Part shown: positions 20,496-29,290 of the stretch, one piece after another | Layout of the letters: the number at the start of each line of letters is the position of its first letter | How positions within the stretch are numbered: position 1 is the first letter of the stretch | Assembly: GCA_002937505.1 (NCBI GenBank) | Contig: PTJY01000002.1 | Span: forward strand, 62,001-126,000 | DNA length: 64,000 nucleotides | Direction of reading: 5' to 3' | From: Alphaproteobacteria bacterium MarineAlpha12_Bin1 | GTDB lineage: Bacteria > Pseudomonadota > Alphaproteobacteria > UBA6615 | The notes under the pieces: generated by a model | The model's database searches: none | What the model saw: only the letters and a program-made list of their open reading frames with translations | What the model was told of the DNA's origin: nothing | Program-made: the position numbers and the translations under genes

Positions 20496-21122
20496 TTAAT
20501 CACTAGCGCGTCGACTGGCCCCCGCTTGTATTACAAGTTGTACCAATGCTTCGTAAGGCTGAGCACCTACCACGCCATAACCATTAGAAACAAAGGTAGG
20601 AACACCAGTAACGCCGTACTCTCGTGACTTTTCCCAATCCTGATCAACAGACTCTTTAAAACTACGCTTATAGAGAACTTCTTTGGTTTCCTCTGAATTG
20701 AGACCAATCTTTTCAGCAAGCCCAACCAACACCTCTACGTCACCGATGTTCTTACCGTCAACAAAGTACGCTCTATAAAGCTTATCATGTATTACATGGC
20801 CCTCAGGCTGAGTTTCTGCCCAGGAACCCAATTCCTGCGCAAGTCTACTGTTGTAGGTGTGCGTTCGTTCTCCATAAGGAAGACCTTCAACCTCCATCAA
20901 ACCCTTCATTCGCTGATGAGCCTCCTCTGGATCATAGTCGCGACCAGAAAATAGATCTGACATGGACATACCTTTGGCAGGTGTATCAGGATGCAACGGA
21001 AAATGAATTAGCTTAATGGATATATCAAACTCCTGCCTTAAATTTTCAATACGCACGGTACTGAGATAACACCAGGGTCAAACATAATCACTAAATATCT
21101 CTACGGTAACTGGTTCGTTCAT
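20496..21122 (-). CDS. FrnE/DsbA-family oxidoreductase, probable selenoprotein (Sec15, UPWC)
   Basis: The gene reads from ATG 21122, 7 nt after a good AGGAG site, through an in-frame TGA at 21078-21080 to the stop at 20496. This gives 208 residues, normal for FrnE-type DsbA proteins. The TGA falls in FSDYV-U-PWCY, the first position of the CPWC redox motif, so Sec15 and Cys18 form the active pair. The cis-proline loop GVTGVPTFV is intact near the C-terminus. Without readthrough the protein would start at 21056 with no ribosome-binding site and no redox motif. A SECIS-like hairpin lies at 21046-21064. It is divergent from a CMD-like gene at 21191. A nonsense mutation is possible but unlikely given its exact position and two parallel cases nearby. 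Confidence 0.86.
21046..21064 (-). promoter_or_regulatory. SECIS-like hairpin of the FrnE-like selenoprotein gene
   Basis: Read on the minus strand, UCAGUAC pairs over 7 bp with GUAUUGA, enclosing the 5-nt loop CGUGC. The stem begins 13 nt after the UGA (21078-21080), and the second loop base is a G. This is the expected form of a bacterial selenocysteine insertion element bound by SelB: a short hairpin just downstream of UGA with a small G-containing apical loop. It is coding sequence at the same time. Confidence 0.75.
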
Positions 21123-21190
21123 CAAAAGTCTCCTTTAGAAAAATCATTGACTAAAGTATATATAATACAAAGAGTTTATAGGAGAAAAAA

Positions 21191-21706
21191 ATGGCAAGAA
21201 TTCCGTATAGCAATATGACAGGACTTGAACCTGATCTTAAAGAAGAGCTATCAAAACGTCCTGATGCAAACATATATCGAATGCTGGCTAATGGAGGCAA
21301 TGCGGCTCTTGGCTACCTCAAAATGGGTAGTGAAATAAGATTTAATGCTGTTTTAAGTCCAACATCGCGTGAACTAATAATCCTTCGCACGGGATCTTTA
21401 TGTAAATCAATATATGAACTCGACCATCACACAATAATTGCTCGTAATATTGGATTGGAAGAAACAAAAATTAATGCCGTAATTCATACCGGATCCAAAT
21501 CGGAAGTCTTGGATGATTTCGAGAAGTGCTTAATGATATTTACTGAAGAAACTGTAAAAGATGGAAAAGCAAGTGAAAAAAGCTTTTTCAATCTAGCTGA
21601 ATATTACAGCCACGAGGAATTGATAGAAACCACCTTACTTATAGGATTTTATATGCTCACCTCTCGTTTTTTACAAACTTTTAACGTAGACCTCGATGAA
21701 CATTGA
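21191..21706 (+). CDS. Carboxymuconolactone decarboxylase (CMD)-family protein
   Basis: This 171-residue all-helical CMD-like protein has the helix-turn segment SPTSRELIILRTGSLCKSIYELDHHTIIA near residues 58-85. The His in DHH corresponds to the conserved family His. The redox CxxC of AhpD is absent: a single Cys occurs, and no in-frame TGA is present. GGAG lies 6-9 nt before the ATG. It is divergent from the selenoprotein frnE gene, with a shared intergenic region of 68 bp, so the two may be co-regulated. It could be a lactone decarboxylase or hydratase-like enzyme, or a redox protein relative. Function unknown. Confidence 0.85.
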   Translation: MARIPYSNMTGLEPDLKEELSKRPDANIYRMLANGGNAALGYLKMGSEIRFNAVLSPTSRELIILRTGSLCKSIYELDHHTIIARNIGLEETKINAVIHTGSKSEVLDDFEKCLMIFTEETVKDGKASEKSFFNLAEYYSHEELIETTLLIGFYMLTSRFLQTFNVDLDEH

Positions 21707-21742
21707 ACCAAAAATTGAATGAATTTATAATAACTCATATAG

Positions 21743-23362
21743 CTAGCCTATAGCATCTTCAAGCACCATATCAGATCCTTTTTCCCCTATCATAATAGCA
21801 GGTGCATTAGTATTACCAGATATTAGCGTAGGCATAATGGAGGCATCAATAACTCTAAGGCCCTCTATACCATGAACTCGTAGTCTTTCATCGACAACAG
21901 CATTCTCATCATCTCCCATTTTACATGTACCCACAGGATGAAAACTAGTTCTACAGTTCTCTAAAATATATTCCAAAACTTCATCATAACTAAGGCAGTC
22001 CTTTCCAGGTTTATGTTCTCCTACGATGAATTGCCTCATAGCATTTTGGCTCATTATTTTTCTTACAGCCTGAACGCCTGCAACTAGGACATCACGATCC
22101 TTTCTTTCTGCCAAATAGTTTGGTTGTATCTCTGGAGCAGAAAATGGATCAGGTGACACAATTCTCAAATATCCACGACTCTCTGGCCTAAGCAAGGCAG
22201 TAACAATCGTGCACCCAGAAAAGTCACTAGCGATGAACCCACCAGCGCCCCCCGCACTTTCAGTACTATAAGGCATTATTTGAGCTTGAATATCAGGAGA
22301 GGCAGAATCAACATCCGCCTTAATAAAGCCTCCTGCATAGGAAGCGCCCCAAGCAAGTTCTCCTTTTCGTGACAATATATATTTTACGCCCGCAGCAATT
22401 CGACGAGAAAAGCTGTTTGCAACATCATTCGCCGTAAAAGGTTTATTGACCTTGTAAACAACAGGGCCATTCACATGATCTTGTAAATTTTCACCAACTC
22501 CTGGCAGGTTTTTTACGACCTCAACACCAAATCTTTGAAGTAGTTGAGATGGGCCTATCCCAGACAACTGAAGCAATTGGGGCGAATTATAGGCTCCTCC
22601 AGAAATTATTACCTCTCCTTCAGCTTTTGCCTGAAGCAACTTATTTCCTTTCTTATACTCCACTCCATTAGCCCGCAAACCATCAAATAATAAACGTGTG
22701 GCATGTGCATCAGTTATGACAACTAAATTGCCTCGTTTTCTTGCTGGCTTGAGGTAACCCACAGCAGTACTGCGACGTCTACCGTTATCTGTAGTCCACT
22801 GTGTATAACCAAAGCCTTCCTGTTGAGCTCCATTAAAGTCTGGATTTAATTGGTAACCAGCCTGAACGGCCGCCTCTAGATAAGCATCAGCGAGCGGGTG
22901 GGGCTCTGCGGGATCAGAAACCGTTAAAGGACCCCCTACGCCGTGAAAGTCATCCGAACCACGTTGTTGATCCTCAGATTTTATAAAGTAAGGCAATACA
23001 TCTTCATAACTCCAGCCCTCATTTCCAAGTTGTCGCCAATGATTGTAATCCTCAGCCTGGCCCCTGATATAAACCATGCCGTTAATAGAGCTTGTTCCGC
23101 CCAAGACTTTCCCTCTGGGTTGGCCTATGGACCTTTTTACCCACTCACTTCCGGGCGCTGTTTCATAGAGCCAATTAATTTTGGCGTTGGTAAAATGTTT
23201 TGCGTATCCTATTGGTATATGTATCCAAGGATTTTTATCCTCACCACCTGCCTCCATTAATAAAACTTTGTATCGACCAGTTTCAGTGAGCCTATTTGCT
23301 AGGACGCAACCGGCACTTCCGGCACCAATTATGATGTAATCAAACTTGCTGGATACTTCCAT
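21743..23362 (-). CDS. GMC family FAD-dependent oxidoreductase, second copy
   Basis: This 539-residue GMC oxidoreductase is closely related to the one at 5691-7301. FAD motif GAGSAG is at residues 13-18, and the PRGKVLGGTSSINGMVY signature is near residue 80. The C-terminal active-site blocks are HPVGTCKMG and SGNTNAPAIMIGEKG. Relatives include choline and alcohol dehydrogenases. It stands alone, tail to tail with the CMD gene and divergent from the SDR at 23465. The two GMC proteins probably have different alcohol substrates. Confidence 0.92.
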   Translation of the reverse strand: MEVSSKFDYIIIGAGSAGCVLANRLTETGRYKVLLMEAGGEDKNPWIHIPIGYAKHFTNAKINWLYETAPGSEWVKRSIGQPRGKVLGGTSSINGMVYIRGQAEDYNHWRQLGNEGWSYEDVLPYFIKSEDQQRGSDDFHGVGGPLTVSDPAEPHPLADAYLEAAVQAGYQLNPDFNGAQQEGFGYTQWTTDNGRRRSTAVGYLKPARKRGNLVVITDAHATRLLFDGLRANGVEYKKGNKLLQAKAEGEVIISGGAYNSPQLLQLSGIGPSQLLQRFGVEVVKNLPGVGENLQDHVNGPVVYKVNKPFTANDVANSFSRRIAAGVKYILSRKGELAWGASYAGGFIKADVDSASPDIQAQIMPYSTESAGGAGGFIASDFSGCTIVTALLRPESRGYLRIVSPDPFSAPEIQPNYLAERKDRDVLVAGVQAVRKIMSQNAMRQFIVGEHKPGKDCLSYDEVLEYILENCRTSFHPVGTCKMGDDENAVVDERLRVHGIEGLRVIDASIMPTLISGNTNAPAIMIGEKGSDMVLEDAIG

Positions 23363-23464
23363 TTTCTAGCCTTCATTTTTTAGTTTTTTTTATATAGCCT
23401 GTAATTATTTCAAAATAAACGTTAGTCTAAAGTTCGTTGAACGTACAGCATGGTGATAACTTTT

Positions 23465-24193
23465 ATGAGTAGACCAAAAGTAGCCCTAATTGTTGGCGCT
23501 GGAGATGCAACTGGCGGCGCAATTGCCAAACGATTTTCACAAGAGGGTTTCACTGTTTGTGTGACCCGCAGAAATGCAGACAAACTCAAGGACCTAGTCT
23601 CAGAAATTAAGGATCAGGGAGGAATAGTGCACGCCTTTGGTTCAGATGCGCGTCGGGAAGAACAGGTAATATCTTTGATAAGTGAAATCGAGAATGAAAT
23701 AGGTCCAATACAAATAGCGGTATATAATGTCGGAGGTAATGTAAAATTTCCTATAACAGAGACAACCTCCAGGGTCTACTTTAAGGTTTGGGAGATGTGC
23801 TCTCTCGGCGGCTTCCTAATGGGGCGTGAAGTGGCAAAAAAAATGCTAAATCGTGGTGAAGGAACGATTCTCTTTACTGGGGCTACCGCATCAATTCGAG
23901 GATCAAGCGGTTTTTCAGCATTTTCGGGCGGCAAACACGCATTAAGAGCTCTAGCCCAATCCATGGCTCGCGAATTATCACCCAAGGGAATTCATGTCGC
24001 ACATATCGTTATAGACGGAGCCATTGATACAGAGTTTATCAAAGAAATGTTCCCCAAGGCATACGCTTTAAAAGAACAAGACGGAATTCTTAACCCAGAG
24101 CATATAGCCGAAAATTATTTGATGATCCACAATCAACCACGAAGTTCATGGACTTTTGAACTGGATTTGCGCCCGTGGATTGAAGATTGGTAA
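23465..24193 (+). CDS. SDR family protein with Tyr-to-Phe change in the active site
   Basis: A short-chain dehydrogenase fold of about 242 residues. ATG 23465 gives MSRPKVALIVGAGDATGG; an in-frame ATG at 23450 is the alternative. The cofactor motif is GAGDATGGAIA and the NAG-like turn is YNVGG. The normal YxxxK pair reads FSGGK, so the catalytic Tyr is Phe and only the Lys remains. The following ALAQSMARELSPKGIHVAH and IDGAIDT resemble a known SDR subgroup that also has Phe there, so it may be a natural variant rather than a broken enzyme. It is followed after 37 bp by an HCCA-isomerase-like gene. Confidence 0.85.
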   Translation: MSRPKVALIVGAGDATGGAIAKRFSQEGFTVCVTRRNADKLKDLVSEIKDQGGIVHAFGSDARREEQVISLISEIENEIGPIQIAVYNVGGNVKFPITETTSRVYFKVWEMCSLGGFLMGREVAKKMLNRGEGTILFTGATASIRGSSGFSAFSGGKHALRALAQSMARELSPKGIHVAHIVIDGAIDTEFIKEMFPKAYALKEQDGILNPEHIAENYLMIHNQPRSSWTFELDLRPWIEDW

Positions 24194-24230
24194 TTTGTCG
24201 TCTGAACAATACCTCACTTAGGAAACTCTA

Positions 24231-24833
24231 ATGGAAAAAACGGTTGAATTTATATTTGATGTAGTTAGCCCAACAGCTTATATCGCGTATCGCCGATTGC
24301 CTGAAATTATAGAGCGAACTGGGGCGACCATTATTTGGAGTCCAGTATTTCTTGGGGGAGTAATGAATGCCAGCGGCAACAAGCCTCCGGGAACCGTAGC
24401 AGCAAAAGGACGATATATGAACAGAGATATGGAGCGTTGCGCTGAACGTTACAAAATAGAGTTTTCTCTCAATAAACATTTTCCAGTAAACACACTATCA
24501 CTGCAAAGAATAGCTGTAGGTCTGAACAACAATGATGAACATGAAGAATTTCTGAAATTTATTGATGTTTGCTTTAAAGCCATATGGGTCGATGGCAAAA
24601 ACATGGGAGACACTGATATCAGTTCTGACGTGTTAGCTGATGCCGGGTTTGAAACGGGGACTCTAATGAATTTAGCAAATGATTCTACTATCAAGGAAAA
24701 ACTTAAATCTTTAACTAATAACGCGGTTCAGAGAGGTGTTTTTGGCGCCCCAACATTTTTTGTAGACCGAGAGATGTATTTTGGACAAGATCGCCTTGAT
24801 TACGTTGAAATCGCCTTATCAAGACAGCAATAA
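24231..24833 (+). CDS. 2-hydroxychromene-2-carboxylate isomerase-like (DsbA/GST-kappa fold) protein
   Basis: This 200-residue thioredoxin-like protein has the N-terminal active-site segment FDVVSPTAYIAYRR, where Ser replaces the first Cys as in HCCA isomerase and GST kappa. It also has a helical insertion with VNTLSLQR and the C-terminal cis-proline loop GVFGAPTFFVDREMYFGQDRL. In naphthalene-type pathways the enzyme isomerises a ring-cleavage product using glutathione. It follows the SDR at 23465 in the same direction and converges within 6 bp on the cupin gene. A second copy is at 32415-33053. Confidence 0.9.
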   Translation: MEKTVEFIFDVVSPTAYIAYRRLPEIIERTGATIIWSPVFLGGVMNASGNKPPGTVAAKGRYMNRDMERCAERYKIEFSLNKHFPVNTLSLQRIAVGLNNNDEHEEFLKFIDVCFKAIWVDGKNMGDTDISSDVLADAGFETGTLMNLANDSTIKEKLKSLTNNAVQRGVFGAPTFFVDREMYFGQDRLDYVEIALSRQQ

Positions 24834-24839
24834 TAGAAC

Positions 24840-25763
24840 TCAGCCAAAACTAAACCCTATTGTACGCAAATGATAATAAAGCCCTCCATCTTGAACGACT
24901 AGGCTTAGCATCATTTCATCACCCTCGTTGTGATGCTCATGTAAATGAGAAGGCGGAGTTATCATGATAGCGTATTGATGCCAATCAACTTTTTCCCCTT
25001 CGATGACCGAGTATACGTTTTTGCTTTGAATGGGTAGTGTTAAAGCTACAGAATTATGACGATGTGGTCGTTGCACTTCATTAGGGTCAAGCGAATTCAT
25101 TGCAAGGGCTATAGATGGATGGATATCCATCATTTTTTCTCTTTTCTCACTGCTAAAATGTAATGCAAGCCCCGAAACATTTGGATCAGCTTTTTGCTGG
25201 TCATGTACTATGGCCATCTGGTGTTTAATCTCAGAACTTTTGTACAATGCAGCTTGAGTTGGTGCCTTTTCTGGGAGAGGAGCATCTAATTTATGAAAAT
25301 CTAATTCAGGCTCATTTGTTACCTGAAATAATACAGCTACTTCCTGGTTTCCTATTAGTTCGGTCTCTCCTCCACCTGGAAGAGCAAACACATCCCCCTT
25401 TGACCAACTGATCATTTCTCCTGATTTTGAAGCACTACCCGATCCAGTAATAACATAATAAATCTCTCCCGACGCGTTAAATTGACCAGAGAGAGACTCT
25501 CCAGGGAGAATTCTGGCATAACGACCTAAAAGGAGAGGCGTGGTTGCGGGATAGTCAAAACCCATTTTCTTGCCAATATCCAGACTAACCCAACTGGTGG
25601 GGGTGTCTCCTCCCATTGCTTGCTCAATTTCATCTACGAAAACATGCTTAGGAACTTCAGGTCGTTTAACAGTAAAAATATTAGCTGGACTGTCGTATCG
25701 CGCACGGCTTTCAAAAACCGATTTAACGTCTTTTGATGTCATGTTTTCTTTTGAACCGTCCAT
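24840..25763 (-). CDS. Two-domain cupin protein (gentisate dioxygenase-like)
   Basis: This 307-residue protein has two cupin barrels. The N-terminal barrel holds GSASKSGEMISWSKGDVFALPGG. The C-terminal barrel has QRPHRHNSVALTLPI and ITPPSHLHEHHNEGD, with His clusters suited to a bound metal. The layout resembles gentisate 1,2-dioxygenase and related bicupins. It is the last gene of a minus-strand run that includes the MDR oxidoreductase and the CMD selenoproteins. It may be a ring-cleaving or sensing protein; activity unproven. Confidence 0.82.
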   Translation of the reverse strand: MDGSKENMTSKDVKSVFESRARYDSPANIFTVKRPEVPKHVFVDEIEQAMGGDTPTSWVSLDIGKKMGFDYPATTPLLLGRYARILPGESLSGQFNASGEIYYVITGSGSASKSGEMISWSKGDVFALPGGGETELIGNQEVAVLFQVTNEPELDFHKLDAPLPEKAPTQAALYKSSEIKHQMAIVHDQQKADPNVSGLALHFSSEKREKMMDIHPSIALAMNSLDPNEVQRPHRHNSVALTLPIQSKNVYSVIEGEKVDWHQYAIMITPPSHLHEHHNEGDEMMLSLVVQDGGLYYHLRTIGFSFG

Positions 25764-25860
25764 AACTTTTCTATCCTATCATCTGGATCTTTTAATTTGT
25801 CATCTTTGAAACATACTATTTCGATATTGAAGATCATACAATTCTTTAACGTTGAATGAG

Positions 25861-26841
25861 TTAAGGCTTTAGAACTAATTTTCCCATCACCTCCCTGGAG
25901 TCGATTATTTCGTGCGCTAGCCGTGCTTCAGAAAGAGGCAAACGCTTGAATATAGGAGGCTTTAAATTCCGGACTGAAAATTGATCAACTACGTTTTGAA
26001 CAATCTTTCGCCTTTTTTCTATATCGTTATCATAACAATGCCACGAAAAACAACGAACAGCTAGGCTTTTTCCAGCCCTGGCTCGTAATTCAGAAAATAA
26101 TTCTTTTTCAGGTAACCCTGCCAAAGCATTATAAGAAATAATCATTCCCAAAGGTGCAAGCATATCCAGAGTATTTACAAAGTTCGGCCCCACAAGCTGA
26201 TCAAAAACAACGTCAACTCCCCTTCCCTCTGTGAGCTCAATAACCCGAGAAATTACCTCGTCTTTTGAATAATTTATTGCTGAAGAAGCGCCATATTCTG
26301 TTACAAACTTACATTTCTTTTCAGAGCTAACACCCGCAAAAATAGAAATATCTTCTGATCTGCATAAATCAATAATAGCTGTACCAAGCCCTCCAGCGGC
26401 GCCATTAACGTAAGCATACTCTGGCTTCTTTCCTCCAAACGCCTCAAATAATAATGACCACGCAATTACGTAATTGGGAATACTAACTGCATCTTCTAGA
26501 TCAATATTATTTGGCAAAGGAGTGACTAGTGATGTCGAAACCGAATTAAATTCAGCATAGCGTCCTCCACCTGTGCCAAAAACTAATACAGGCTGGCCTA
26601 CTTCTAGGTTTTTGATCCCTCGACCAATTTTTTCTATGTGGCCACTCATCTCGTTACCTAATATAGCTGGCAAAGGCGGAGACCATCTATAAACACCCTT
26701 ACGCATAAGTACATCAGGTTTACCCACGCCAATTGAGTGAGCACGAACCAGCACCTCCCCAAAACCAGGCTCTGGAATTGGTAATTCTATCACTTCAAGA
26801 ACTTCAGGCCCTCCAGGAGCAGAAAACTGTATAGCTCTCAT
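25861..26841 (-). CDS. MDR family oxidoreductase (quinone oxidoreductase-like, zinc-free)
   Basis: This 326-residue medium-chain dehydrogenase/reductase starts MRAIQFSAPGGPEVLEVIELP. It has the NADPH-binding VNGAAGGLGTAIIDL near residue 145 and lacks the structural zinc cysteines, as in quinone oxidoreductases. GGGAG sits 9 nt before the ATG. It starts 38 bp after the end of the CMD selenoprotein at 26880 and is probably transcribed with it. It could supply or consume reducing equivalents for that module, but this is inference. Confidence 0.9.
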   Translation of the reverse strand: MRAIQFSAPGGPEVLEVIELPIPEPGFGEVLVRAHSIGVGKPDVLMRKGVYRWSPPLPAILGNEMSGHIEKIGRGIKNLEVGQPVLVFGTGGGRYAEFNSVSTSLVTPLPNNIDLEDAVSIPNYVIAWSLLFEAFGGKKPEYAYVNGAAGGLGTAIIDLCRSEDISIFAGVSSEKKCKFVTEYGASSAINYSKDEVISRVIELTEGRGVDVVFDQLVGPNFVNTLDMLAPLGMIISYNALAGLPEKELFSELRARAGKSLAVRCFSWHCYDNDIEKRRKIVQNVVDQFSVRNLKPPIFKRLPLSEARLAHEIIDSREVMGKLVLKP

Positions 26842-26879
26842 CCAATAAACTCCCTAAATAACAAACATAGACCTTGGCA

Positions 26880-27503
26880 TTACTCCGCTGCCATGGACTG
26901 CAATGATAAAGGTGCTGCCCCATAAAGTCGTTCTGATTCTTCCTGACCAACCAAACGACCATCTGGCGAATACATAGGGTAGAACTTTAATGTTCCAAAG
27001 AATGTGTGATACCCCGCATTAAAACATAAAAAGATACCTATCTGAGTAATTTCATCTTCACTGAGATGTTTGCGTAAATTCTCATAATATTCGGCATCTA
27101 AAGAATCAGGATCCTTCATTACCAAATCTACATGATTCAGTATTGCTTTCTCCTTATCATCAAGATGTTCACTATCTGCATAATTATTTATGCCATCGTC
27201 AATAAGTTCTTCTGTAAGTCCGTCCCGCTTCGCCGAAGCAGATCGTACATTACCTCAATAGCTACAGTGCGCCCGACGGGACAGAGAAACACGCATAATT
27301 TCCTTAATTTTATGACTAAGATTTCCTGAGTTAAATGATACTGCCCAAGCTTCATAGTTAGCTATAGCAAGATCAATGTTATGCCCTAACATCGCCAAAG
27401 CACCCGGATCAGGCGCTTTGTGTTCTAGGCTTCGTTCGATATAGGGCTTAAGTTTAGTCTTTTTAAGCTCTTCTATATCAAGCATAGTAATATTTGGTGC
27501 CAT
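26880..27503 (-). CDS. AhpD/CMD-like selenoprotein, copy 1 (Cys80-Ser-Tyr-Sec83)
   Basis: One 207-residue protein is encoded if the in-frame TGA at 27255-27257 is read as selenocysteine. ATG 27503 has AGGAGG 5 nt upstream. The active-site segment reads RRAHCSY-U-GNVRSASAK, a CxxU version of the CxxC redox pair of AhpD-type CMD proteins. The frame stays open across the 43 codons between the TGA and the next ATG, and the C-terminal half keeps the CMD helical pattern (ILNHVDLVMKDP, FNAGYHTFFG). A SECIS-like hairpin sits at 27224-27242. The paralogue at 28170-28793 has the same TGA at the same codon. The likely role is a peroxide- or disulfide-reducing enzyme served by the nearby thioredoxin. Confidence 0.88.
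26920..27215. repeat. 296-bp perfect direct repeat, unit A (with 28210-28505)
   Basis: This segment is identical base for base to 28210-28505, at an offset of 1290 bp. It covers most of the C-terminal half of the first CMD selenoprotein gene. Mismatches flank it at 26919 and 27216. The central part of the two genes (upstream of the TGA) is strongly diverged, so the identity reflects recent conversion or partial duplication rather than general slow divergence. Confidence 0.95.
27224..27242 (-). promoter_or_regulatory. SECIS-like hairpin, CMD selenoprotein copy 1
   Basis: On the minus strand UCUGCUUC pairs with GAAGCGGG over 8 bp (three G-U pairs), closing a GGC loop whose first base is G. The stem begins 12 nt after the UGA at 27255-27257. 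The size and spacing match the hairpins of the other two selenoprotein genes. Confidence 0.78.
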
Positions 27504-27576
27504 CATTTCCTCCTTCGATCCGTTTAAATAGTACTTCAGGGATCCATCTTATCATACTAGCATGATGTACAACTCA

Positions 27577-27606
27577 AAAAGCCGGCGGGAACAGCCGACG
27601 GCTTTT
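27577..27606 (-). terminator. Strong rho-independent terminator, probably bidirectional
   Basis: AAAAGCCG pairs with CGGCTTTT; after one G-A mismatch three more GC pairs close a 6-base loop. With an A-run on one side and a T-run on the other it can end transcripts in both directions. It lies between the CMD paralogue ending at 27643 and the selenoprotein starting at 27503. The downstream selenoprotein therefore probably has its own promoter or receives only readthrough. Confidence 0.85.
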
Positions 27607-27642
27607 GCAGAGAGTTTAACAATATTTTTGAACTTGAAAGAC

Positions 27643-28170
27643 TTATTGAGAACTGCCAAACGACCTCATGGCCATATGTGCCCCATGGTAAAGAGCAATG
27701 AATGCTCCAAGTTCCATAACCTGAGCCTCGGTATAATGCTTCTTCAACTCGTCATAGAGTTCCTTGTCTACTTTGCTCGAGTCTAGGAACATTTGATCAG
27801 CGTAACGAAGAGCTACTTTCTCTGCTTCGGTAAAAAAATCTGAATCCTCATAATCTCCTGAGCCAGCGTCAATTACCTCTTCAGTAAGCCCCATGTCCCT
27901 TGCCTTGGTTGAACGTAAACCAGAAGAATATGAGTCTTCCGAAAAACGGGCTAACTGAATACGAATAATCTCTTTCAATCTGTGGTCAACATTACCTTCA
28001 GTAAAGTTCAAAAGCATTACTTTCAATAAAGCTTTAGCCTGTTCAGGCATCCTTGCTACTATACGAGGAAATTCACCACCCGGAACTCCAAGTTCTTCAC
28101 ACTTTTCAACGAGTTCCCTTAGTTCTGGATCAGTGATCTCATTTATGTCTAAAGGCTTTATTACTGTCAT
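27643..28170 (-). CDS. CMD-like paralogue without redox residues (Asp/Ser in place of Cys/Sec)
   Basis: This 175-residue CMD-like protein aligns with the two flanking selenoproteins. The active-site segment reads SEDSYSSGLRSTKA, where Cys80 and Sec83 of the paralogues become Asp and Ser, so no thiol or selenol pair remains. Its ATG overlaps the TAA of the upstream selenoprotein gene (TAATG), indicating tight coupling and probably a fixed ratio with it. It may be a structural or regulatory partner in a mixed oligomer. It has lost its redox function, or it works by another chemistry. A strong terminator follows the gene. Confidence 0.85.
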   Translation of the reverse strand: MTVIKPLDINEITDPELRELVEKCEELGVPGGEFPRIVARMPEQAKALLKVMLLNFTEGNVDHRLKEIIRIQLARFSEDSYSSGLRSTKARDMGLTEEVIDAGSGDYEDSDFFTEAEKVALRYADQMFLDSSKVDKELYDELKKHYTEAQVMELGAFIALYHGAHMAMRSFGSSQ

Positions 28171-28793
28171 TACTCAGCTGCCATGGACTGCAGTGATGAA
28201 GGTGCTGCACCATAAAGTCGTTCTGATTCTTCCTGACCAACCAAACGACCATCTGGCGAATACATAGGGTAGAACTTTAATGTTCCAAAGAATGTGTGAT
28301 ACCCCGCATTAAAACATAAAAAGATACCTATCTGAGTAATTTCATCTTCACTGAGATGTTTGCGTAAATTCTCATAATATTCGGCATCTAAAGAATCAGG
28401 ATCCTTCATTACCAAATCTACATGATTCAGTATTGCTTTCTCCTTATCATCAAGATGTTCACTATCTGCATAATTATTTATGCCATCGTCAATAAGTTCT
28501 TCTGTGAGTCCGTCCCGCTTCGCCGAAGCAGATCGTACATTGCCTCAATAACTGCAGTGTGCCTGTCGGGACATAGAAACTCGAATAATTTCCTTTAATT
28601 TATGATCTAAACTTCCGGTTCCGAAGGCCGTTGTCCAGGCTATATACATCGACTCGGCCAGGTCAATATTGTGGCCCATCATAGCATGAAAACCCGGATC
28701 CGGTGCTTTGTGCTCTAGGCTTTGTTCTATATAGGGCTTAAGTTTTGTCTTTTTAAGCTCTTCTATATCTAGCATAGTAATATTTGGTGCCAT
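28170..28793 (-). CDS. AhpD/CMD-like selenoprotein, copy 2 (Cys80-Ser-Tyr-Sec83)
   Basis: A 207-residue protein with an in-frame TGA at 28545-28547 read as Sec83. ATG 28793 is preceded by AGGAGA at good spacing. The active site is RQAHCSY-U-GNVRSASAK. The length and Sec position equal those of copy 1 at 26880-27503. The two proteins differ mainly in residues about 38-70, just before the active site (GHNIDLAESMYIAWTTAFGTG here). It is followed with a one-base overlap by a redox-dead paralogue and preceded by a thioredoxin gene 38 bp upstream. This arrangement suggests that thioredoxin reduces the Se-S bond of the CMD protein. Two parallel nonsense mutations at the same codon are much less likely than Sec. 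Confidence 0.88.
28210..28505. repeat. 296-bp perfect direct repeat, unit B (with 26920-27215)
   Basis: This is the second unit of the perfect direct repeat, inside the C-terminal half of the copy 2 selenoprotein gene. High similarity continues on both sides to the gene end and to just beyond the TGA, with scattered differences. Recombination between the units would delete the intervening redox-dead paralogue and the terminator. Confidence 0.95.
28514..28532 (-). promoter_or_regulatory. SECIS-like hairpin, CMD selenoprotein copy 2
   Basis: The sequence and fold are identical to the hairpin of copy 1: an 8-bp stem with a GGC loop, starting 12 nt after the UGA at 28545-28547. Nearby bases have diverged between the copies (for example the codons just before and after the UGA), while the hairpin is unchanged. 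Confidence 0.78.
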
Positions 28794-28831: not shown

Positions 28832-29161
28832 CTATGCGTAAGATTCAACTAGTTTTTTTAATACCTGCCTTCTATCTACCCCTGTCCTTGTTTCAATAAC
28901 TTCCCCGTTTTTAACAAATAACAAGGTTGGAGTAGAACGAATACCAAAACGATCTAAAAGACTAGTATTTTCTTCTGCCTTAACAGTGCCTATCCTAACC
29001 CCTTCAGGCAAATCGGGAGCCAGTTGCTTAAGGACCTTTGTCAACTGTATGCACGGTACGCAAGAATCAGACCAAAAATCAATCACCGTCAGTCCTCTGT
29101 GACTCATAACCCTACTATCAAAATTTTGCTCACTAAACTCTGCAAAATTATGGCGATTCAT
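28832..29161 (-). CDS. Thioredoxin-like protein (CVPC active site)
   Basis: This thioredoxin-fold protein has 109 residues. ATG 29161 was preferred over the upstream TTG because GGGGA lies 6 nt before it. The active site is DFWSDSCVPC, with Cys34 and Cys37, and the cis-proline is in IRSTPTLLFVKNG. The usual WCGPC is changed to SCVPC, so its redox potential or partner range may differ from housekeeping thioredoxin. No signal peptide, hence cytoplasmic. It is the first gene of the minus-strand run leading into the CMD selenoproteins and is the natural candidate for their reductant. Confidence 0.92.
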   Translation of the reverse strand: MNRHNFAEFSEQNFDSRVMSHRGLTVIDFWSDSCVPCIQLTKVLKQLAPDLPEGVRIGTVKAEENTSLLDRFGIRSTPTLLFVKNGEVIETRTGVDRRQVLKKLVESYA

Positions 29162-29290
29162 TATTTTCCCCAAGCTAGAAAAGTATTTGCTAGTATTCTA
29201 AACATCAAAGTTTAAATTAACCTAAGCTGAGCGCATTGTGCAATCCCTAATCACTTAATAACAGTCAAGTAGGATGCGAGGAATCTAATC

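Follow-up and report, generated by a model that had tools for sequence, protein, structure and literature searches.

The stretch of DNA analysed here, referred to as the window, comprises 64,000 nt of genome G000 (2.34 Mb in 12 contigs, 100% complete), and carries on its minus strand a FrnE/DsbA-like gene and a cluster of CMD/AhpD-like genes, in which three reading frames run through an in-frame UGA codon (Table 1). These genes are not broken: all three are intact selenoprotein genes, and their types have been described before.

Table 1 Features of the FrnE and CMD loci, with positions counted within the window.
Feature	Position	Strand	Remarks
FrnE/DsbA-like selenoprotein gene	20496..21122	-	Sec = residue 15 (DYV-U-PWCYL, UxxC); translated with TGA as U
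Predicted SECIS hairpin, FrnE	21046..21064	-	7 bp; loop CGUGC (21053-21057), 20 nt after UGA
Sec UGA, FrnE-like gene	21078..21080	-	TGA in 29 of 29 unique orthologous loci
CMD/AhpD-like selenoprotein gene, copy 1	26880..27506	-	Sec = residue 84 (HCSY-U-GNVR, CxxU)
Predicted SECIS hairpin, CMD copy 1	27224..27242	-	Loop GGC (27232-27234); conserved 7 bp core 27241-27235 with 27231-27225
Sec UGA, CMD copy 1	27255..27257	-	TGA in 70 of 70 unique loci
CMD-like paralog between both selenoprotein copies	27643..28170	-	No Cys/Sec at the CxxU site (EDSYSSGLRS; DSYS)
CMD/AhpD-like selenoprotein gene, copy 2	28170..28793	-	Sec = residue 83; 90% identity with copy 1
Predicted SECIS hairpin, CMD copy 2	28514..28532	-	Sequence identical to copy 1 hairpin
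Sec UGA, CMD copy 2	28545..28547	-	TGA in 70 of 70 unique loci
Thioredoxin-like gene directly upstream of CMD cluster	28832..29173	-	PF00085, 67.7 bits

The FrnE-like product matches PF01323 with 120 bits and alignment to the solved FrnE structures 5cnw/5cp1 places U15 at the first Cys of CPWC; a DSBA domain with Sec at the active-site Cys position marks it as a DsbA-like selenoprotein of COG2761, which we take to be the FrnE group. CMD copy 1 reaches 23.3 bits against PF02627, barely above the gathering cut-off of 23, and its CSYU (CxxU) aligns with the CxxC of the solved AhpD-like proteins 2gmy and 2ijc, as befits a CMD/AhpD-like selenoprotein in which CxxU replaces CxxC. A His located three residues past the second Cys in the aligned AhpD-like structures is absent from the Sec-containing CMD proteins (CMD-U) found here (CSYUGNVR). 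Synteny indicates that a homolog of the Cys-less CMD paralog adjoins or directly follows CMD-U in most relatives, and no counterpart of the paralog was found in the other two members of its genus (G015, G016). The thioredoxin-like gene, a candidate electron donor for the CMD cluster, likewise keeps its place upstream of CMD-U in many alpha- and betaproteobacterial loci. An NCBIfam scan of the proteins P0001 and P0003 gave no model reaching its cut-off for either, nor did any model do so for the CMD selenoprotein, and automatic annotation therefore probably truncates both genes at the UGA.

Each UGA is followed on the minus strand by a hairpin, for which the earlier note had given coordinates, spacing, stem length, loops and loop G correctly to the base. 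The FrnE hairpin starts 13 nt after the UGA (stem UCAGUAC/GUAUUGA, loop CGUGC) and both CMD hairpins start 12 nt after it (stem UCUGCUUC/GAAGCGGG, loop GGC); stem lengths are 7, 8 and 8 bp, and loop lengths 5, 3 and 3 nt, for FrnE, CMD copy 1 and CMD copy 2 respectively. In all three the apical loop lies exactly 20 nt after the UGA and has a G within its first two bases. On folding 45 nt after each UGA with RNAfold, the hairpin was present in the minimum-energy structure in 3/3 cases. The minimum free energies are -8.3, -14.0 and -11.1 kcal/mol (same order), and comparison with dinucleotide shuffles gave z values of -1.3, -2.5 and -1.2; folding energy alone is unremarkable and not decisive for the three hairpins. 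An Rfam scan of the window returned zero families at the gathering threshold.

In the SECIS element of Escherichia coli fdhF, the hairpin is located just downstream of the UGA with a loop G near nt 20 and a bulged U in the upper stem. The hairpins described here are alike in place and in the loop G near nt 20, but the bulged U is missing and both conserved stems are uninterrupted. The general bacterial SECIS model (bSECISearch, restated in PMC13188914) calls for a loop of 3-9 nt with G as its first or second base, a stem of 4-16 bp, a UGA-loop distance of 16-37 nt and an MFE of at most -7.5, and all three hairpins lie within it on every point. With respect to the preferred N1-G-[G/U]-N-N2 pattern of this model, the CMD loop fits (C-GGC-G), whereas the FrnE loop reads C-GUG-C with N1 and N2 unpaired in most members. 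As the features matched in the earlier note are those of the published general model, a geometry shared by the hairpins is to be expected and is not surprising.

How often such a geometry would be encountered by chance was gauged from the 2379 TGA triplets on both strands of the window. A loose test with the model's limits for loop, loop G, distance and MFE, and with at least 4 bp, was passed by 5.1% of them, and geometry alone is thus weak evidence for a SECIS element. A strict test asked for a loop of 3-5 nt located 19-21 nt past the UGA, a G as its first or second base and a stem of 7 or more contiguous bp; nine triplets passed, three of which are those of FrnE, CMD copy 1 and CMD copy 2. 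When the same peptides were recoded synonymously by local codon usage, a hairpin passing the strict test turned up 4 and 10 times per 10,000 draws in the CMD copies and 58 times per 10,000 in FrnE.

The two CMD copies match almost throughout in their 5' part and again from roughly the position of the UGA, with a diverged section in between (55% in one 60-nt block); identity over successive 60-nt blocks runs 58/60, 46/60, 33/60, 46/60 and 57/60, followed by 240/240. Both UGA and hairpin fall inside the near-identical part of this mosaic, and the identical hairpin of copy 2 probably arose via gene conversion. The CMD hairpins therefore count as one observation, so that of the three UGA codons for which SECIS geometry had been claimed all exist, and two are independent instances.

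Comparison across relatives was based on protein searches covering 24 genomes from the order and 385 from the class, together with a one-genome-per-species scan, which yielded 29 unique loci for FrnE-U (the Sec form of FrnE) and 70 for CMD-U. TGA occupies the site in every locus, and a search for Cys versions of close orthologs found no Cys codon at the Sec site among these 29 and 70 loci. The earlier note had held that its reading would fail if the hairpins were lost where Sec is conserved; when nt 10-35 are folded locally, the loop falls 20-21 nt past the UGA in 29/29 FrnE and 70/70 CMD loci, so the hairpin is kept wherever the UGA is kept, and covariation backs the helices. Relative codon entropy is 0.087 inside the hairpin against 0.905 outside it for CMD, and 0.051 against 0.850 for FrnE, a degree of codon freezing matched by none of 100,000 random sets of conserved columns. 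In CMD the hairpin's Ala-Ser-Ala-Lys is encoded by GCT TCG GCG AAG in all 70 loci, bar one Ala to Thr, while in FrnE the hairpin codons for Leu (CTC, 29/29), Arg (CGT, 29/29) and Thr (ACC, 28/29) are similarly fixed. Cys paralogs of FrnE in the same genomes have a hairpin at that place in 0/7 cases, a structure thus conserved with Sec and absent from Cys homologs; this contrast covers seven FrnE paralogs of about 30% identity, and since these are distant it is supporting evidence only. The SECIS reading is strongly supported by sequence comparison across loci, and it is this comparison, rather than the geometry, that decides it.

Compensatory changes of the kind that the earlier note had proposed to look for were found in FrnE pairs 18-28 and 16-30 and in CMD pair 15-29. 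Of the 29 FrnE sequences, 18 have U-A and 11 have C-G at pair 18-28, with no mixed state; on the 5' side of this pair the change is synonymous for Ser (one row has Thr instead) and on the 3' side it is an Ile/Val swap, and as a silent Ser change is thereby tied to an Ile/Val swap, protein constraint is an unlikely link between them. On a protein tree built without the codons of this pair, each side requires at least 5 parsimony changes, always together and in the same way; the tree includes one row with a frameshift (L065), whose long branch is an artefact and which carries the common U-A state. Independent tree pairs on well-supported branches agree in 3/3 cases, too few for significance (sign test p 0.25). 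Pair 16-30 shows a double change from A-U to U-A in two sequences (Ser to Cys together with a silent Ile codon), one sequence (L149) has gained a G-C pair above the stem, and another (L049) has one C.U mismatch. CMD pair 15-29 is C-G, U-A or U-G in 70/70 loci and never C-A. Paired cells amount to 98.1% in FrnE and 91.9% in CMD, as against at most 43.8% and 65.7% with the partners slid. In each helix the covariation is limited to one or two pairs, and the tree offers few pairs that are strictly independent.

The same alignments refine the claim of a single shared geometry. The 8 bp CMD stem of the earlier note does fold in both copies, but its outermost U.G pair (13-31) is paired in 25/70 loci; with this pair unsupported, the conserved stem is 7 bp from nt 14 after the UGA in both families. 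The agreement is hence closer than had been claimed (7 bp, nt 14-20 after UGA in both), and the differences of 13 versus 12 nt and 7 versus 8 bp vanish.

The genome has the complete set of genes for Sec decoding (selA, selB, selC and selD). On the contig of the window (C5) lie selA (C5:169091-170452), selB (C5:170473-172347), a tRNA-Sec whose anticodon is UCA (C5:175053-) and an NDH-SelD fusion, the SelD part of which has a Cys-type CGGCG. Beside NDH-selD and outside the window is a PrdB-like selenoprotein gene with an in-frame UGA (VPV-U-PQC; L008:17431-18663, minus strand), which automatic ORF calling cuts into two. In this gene the hairpin loop is GUU and lies 18 nt past the UGA, which makes it a third independent selenoprotein of the genome with nearly the same spacing. 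Among 385 genomes of the class, selA is present in 15 of the 16 with FrnE-U and in 41 of the 369 without it (Fisher p 7e-13). Two FrnE-U genomes, one of the class set and one more in the order, have no selA, and their assemblies are incomplete (77% and 87%). In nine relatives (G004, G007, G008, G009, G017, G018, G020, G021, G023) CMD-U and selA share a contig and are no more than about 7 kb apart; in the genome of the window the distance is about 80 kb.

Taken together, the three hairpins are almost certainly bacterial SECIS elements directing Sec insertion into a FrnE product with UxxC and two CMD products with CxxU. In the established bacterial pathway, the SECIS element is bound by SelB together with Sec-tRNA-Sec, and Sec is thereby supplied at the UGA lying upstream (PMC13188914, PMC1794560). 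By this scheme each mRNA would fold about 14-32 nt downstream of the in-frame UGA into a 7 bp stem with a small G-containing loop starting 20 nt after the UGA, SelB with its Sec-tRNA-Sec would bind the loop, and on entry of the UGA into the ribosomal A site selenocysteine would be inserted and termination avoided. The predicted products are a FrnE/DsbA-like oxidoreductase with UxxC for CxxC, Sec taking the place of the first Cys of CPWC, and two CMD/AhpD-like proteins in which Sec would replace the second Cys of CxxC. The SelB-type reading of the earlier note is therefore supported, with SelA, SelB, tRNA-Sec and SelD all encoded; SelB recognition itself, Sec insertion and the redox roles are what we infer. 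The CMD proteins probably act in a thioredoxin-linked reduction of peroxides or disulfides, because a thioredoxin-like gene lies directly upstream here and in many relatives.

The chance level described above, with a loose SECIS-like hairpin after 5% of TGA triplets, is what speaks for taking the UGA codons as true stops, the genes as truncated pseudogenes or products of sequencing error and the hairpins as accidents. Such an account is exceedingly improbable, being refuted by conservation: the same UGA with an intact frame downstream recurs in 99 unique loci from many assemblies, protein conservation downstream of the UGA is high, and synonymous freezing and covariation are centred on the hairpin. 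Genome-wide reassignment of UGA (e.g. to Trp or Gly), by which a recoding signal would be unneeded, has nothing in its favour except the in-frame UGA codons themselves and has a negligible probability. It is contradicted by the use of UGA as an ordinary stop in 7 of the window's 44 ORFs that reach 220 aa or more, so that the codon is not reassigned, by convincing internal UGA codons in FrnE and the two CMD genes only, by the correspondence of UGA to an active-site Cys in both families and by the full Sec machinery. Three other UGA-interrupted candidates in the window have only 12-20 codons ahead of the UGA and lack a suitable hairpin; they look like upstream extensions that arose by chance.

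It could also be that Sec is inserted while the hairpins mainly serve mRNA stability or translational pausing and SelB recognises other features. The cUUCGg stretch in the CMD core could form a different small stem, and SelB binding is a prediction; yet the position relative to the UGA is fixed across two unrelated families, the loop rules agree with the published SECIS model (PMC13188914), Cys paralogs have no hairpin and the CMD covariation suits a helix of 7-8 bp, all of which makes a main role of this kind very unlikely.

Both selenoprotein families are already known, and the present genes are further members. A survey of the Sargasso Sea in 2005 reported DsbA-like (COG2761, UxxC) and CMD domain-containing (PF02627, CxxU) selenoproteins (PMC1088965), and similar families were met again in the GOS survey (cf. 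DsbA 1, AhpD-like 2; PMC2398784). The FrnE gene shares with the DsbA-like selenoprotein the DSBA fold, the active-site UxxC and occurrence in marine bacteria; judged by the published descriptions, no difference between the two is apparent. The CMD genes share the CMD domain and CxxU with their counterpart in PMC1088965, but here the two copies lie in tandem on either side of a Cys-less paralog, and a thioredoxin gene precedes them. A search of the literature on the detail of SelB/SECIS recognition and on this CMD subfamily gave nothing beyond known surveys and reviews.

Overall, the finding leaves the understanding of the Sec insertion mechanism unchanged. Standard annotation would cut these selenoprotein genes at the UGA, and the two well-sampled, covariation-supported SECIS alignments, mostly from uncultured bacteria, are useful for better SECIS models and for annotating many genomes. 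The 70 CMD-U loci, in all of which the residue is Sec, come from Alpha- and Betaproteobacteria and from records that carry the labels Nitrospinaceae, SAR324, Tectomicrobia and Chloroflexi. Among the carriers of CMD-U is a cultured relative, Rhodoplanes tepidamans DSM 9987 (L104). CMD-U often occurs in a cluster of thioredoxin, CMD-U and a second CMD gene, in many cases close to selA, an arrangement that may point to a selenium-dependent redox module of its own. We tentatively put forward, as a possibility held at less than even expectation, that CMD-U may be an undescribed Sec-exclusive lineage forming such a module, with the neighbouring CMD protein (Cys-less here) maybe a non-catalytic partner.
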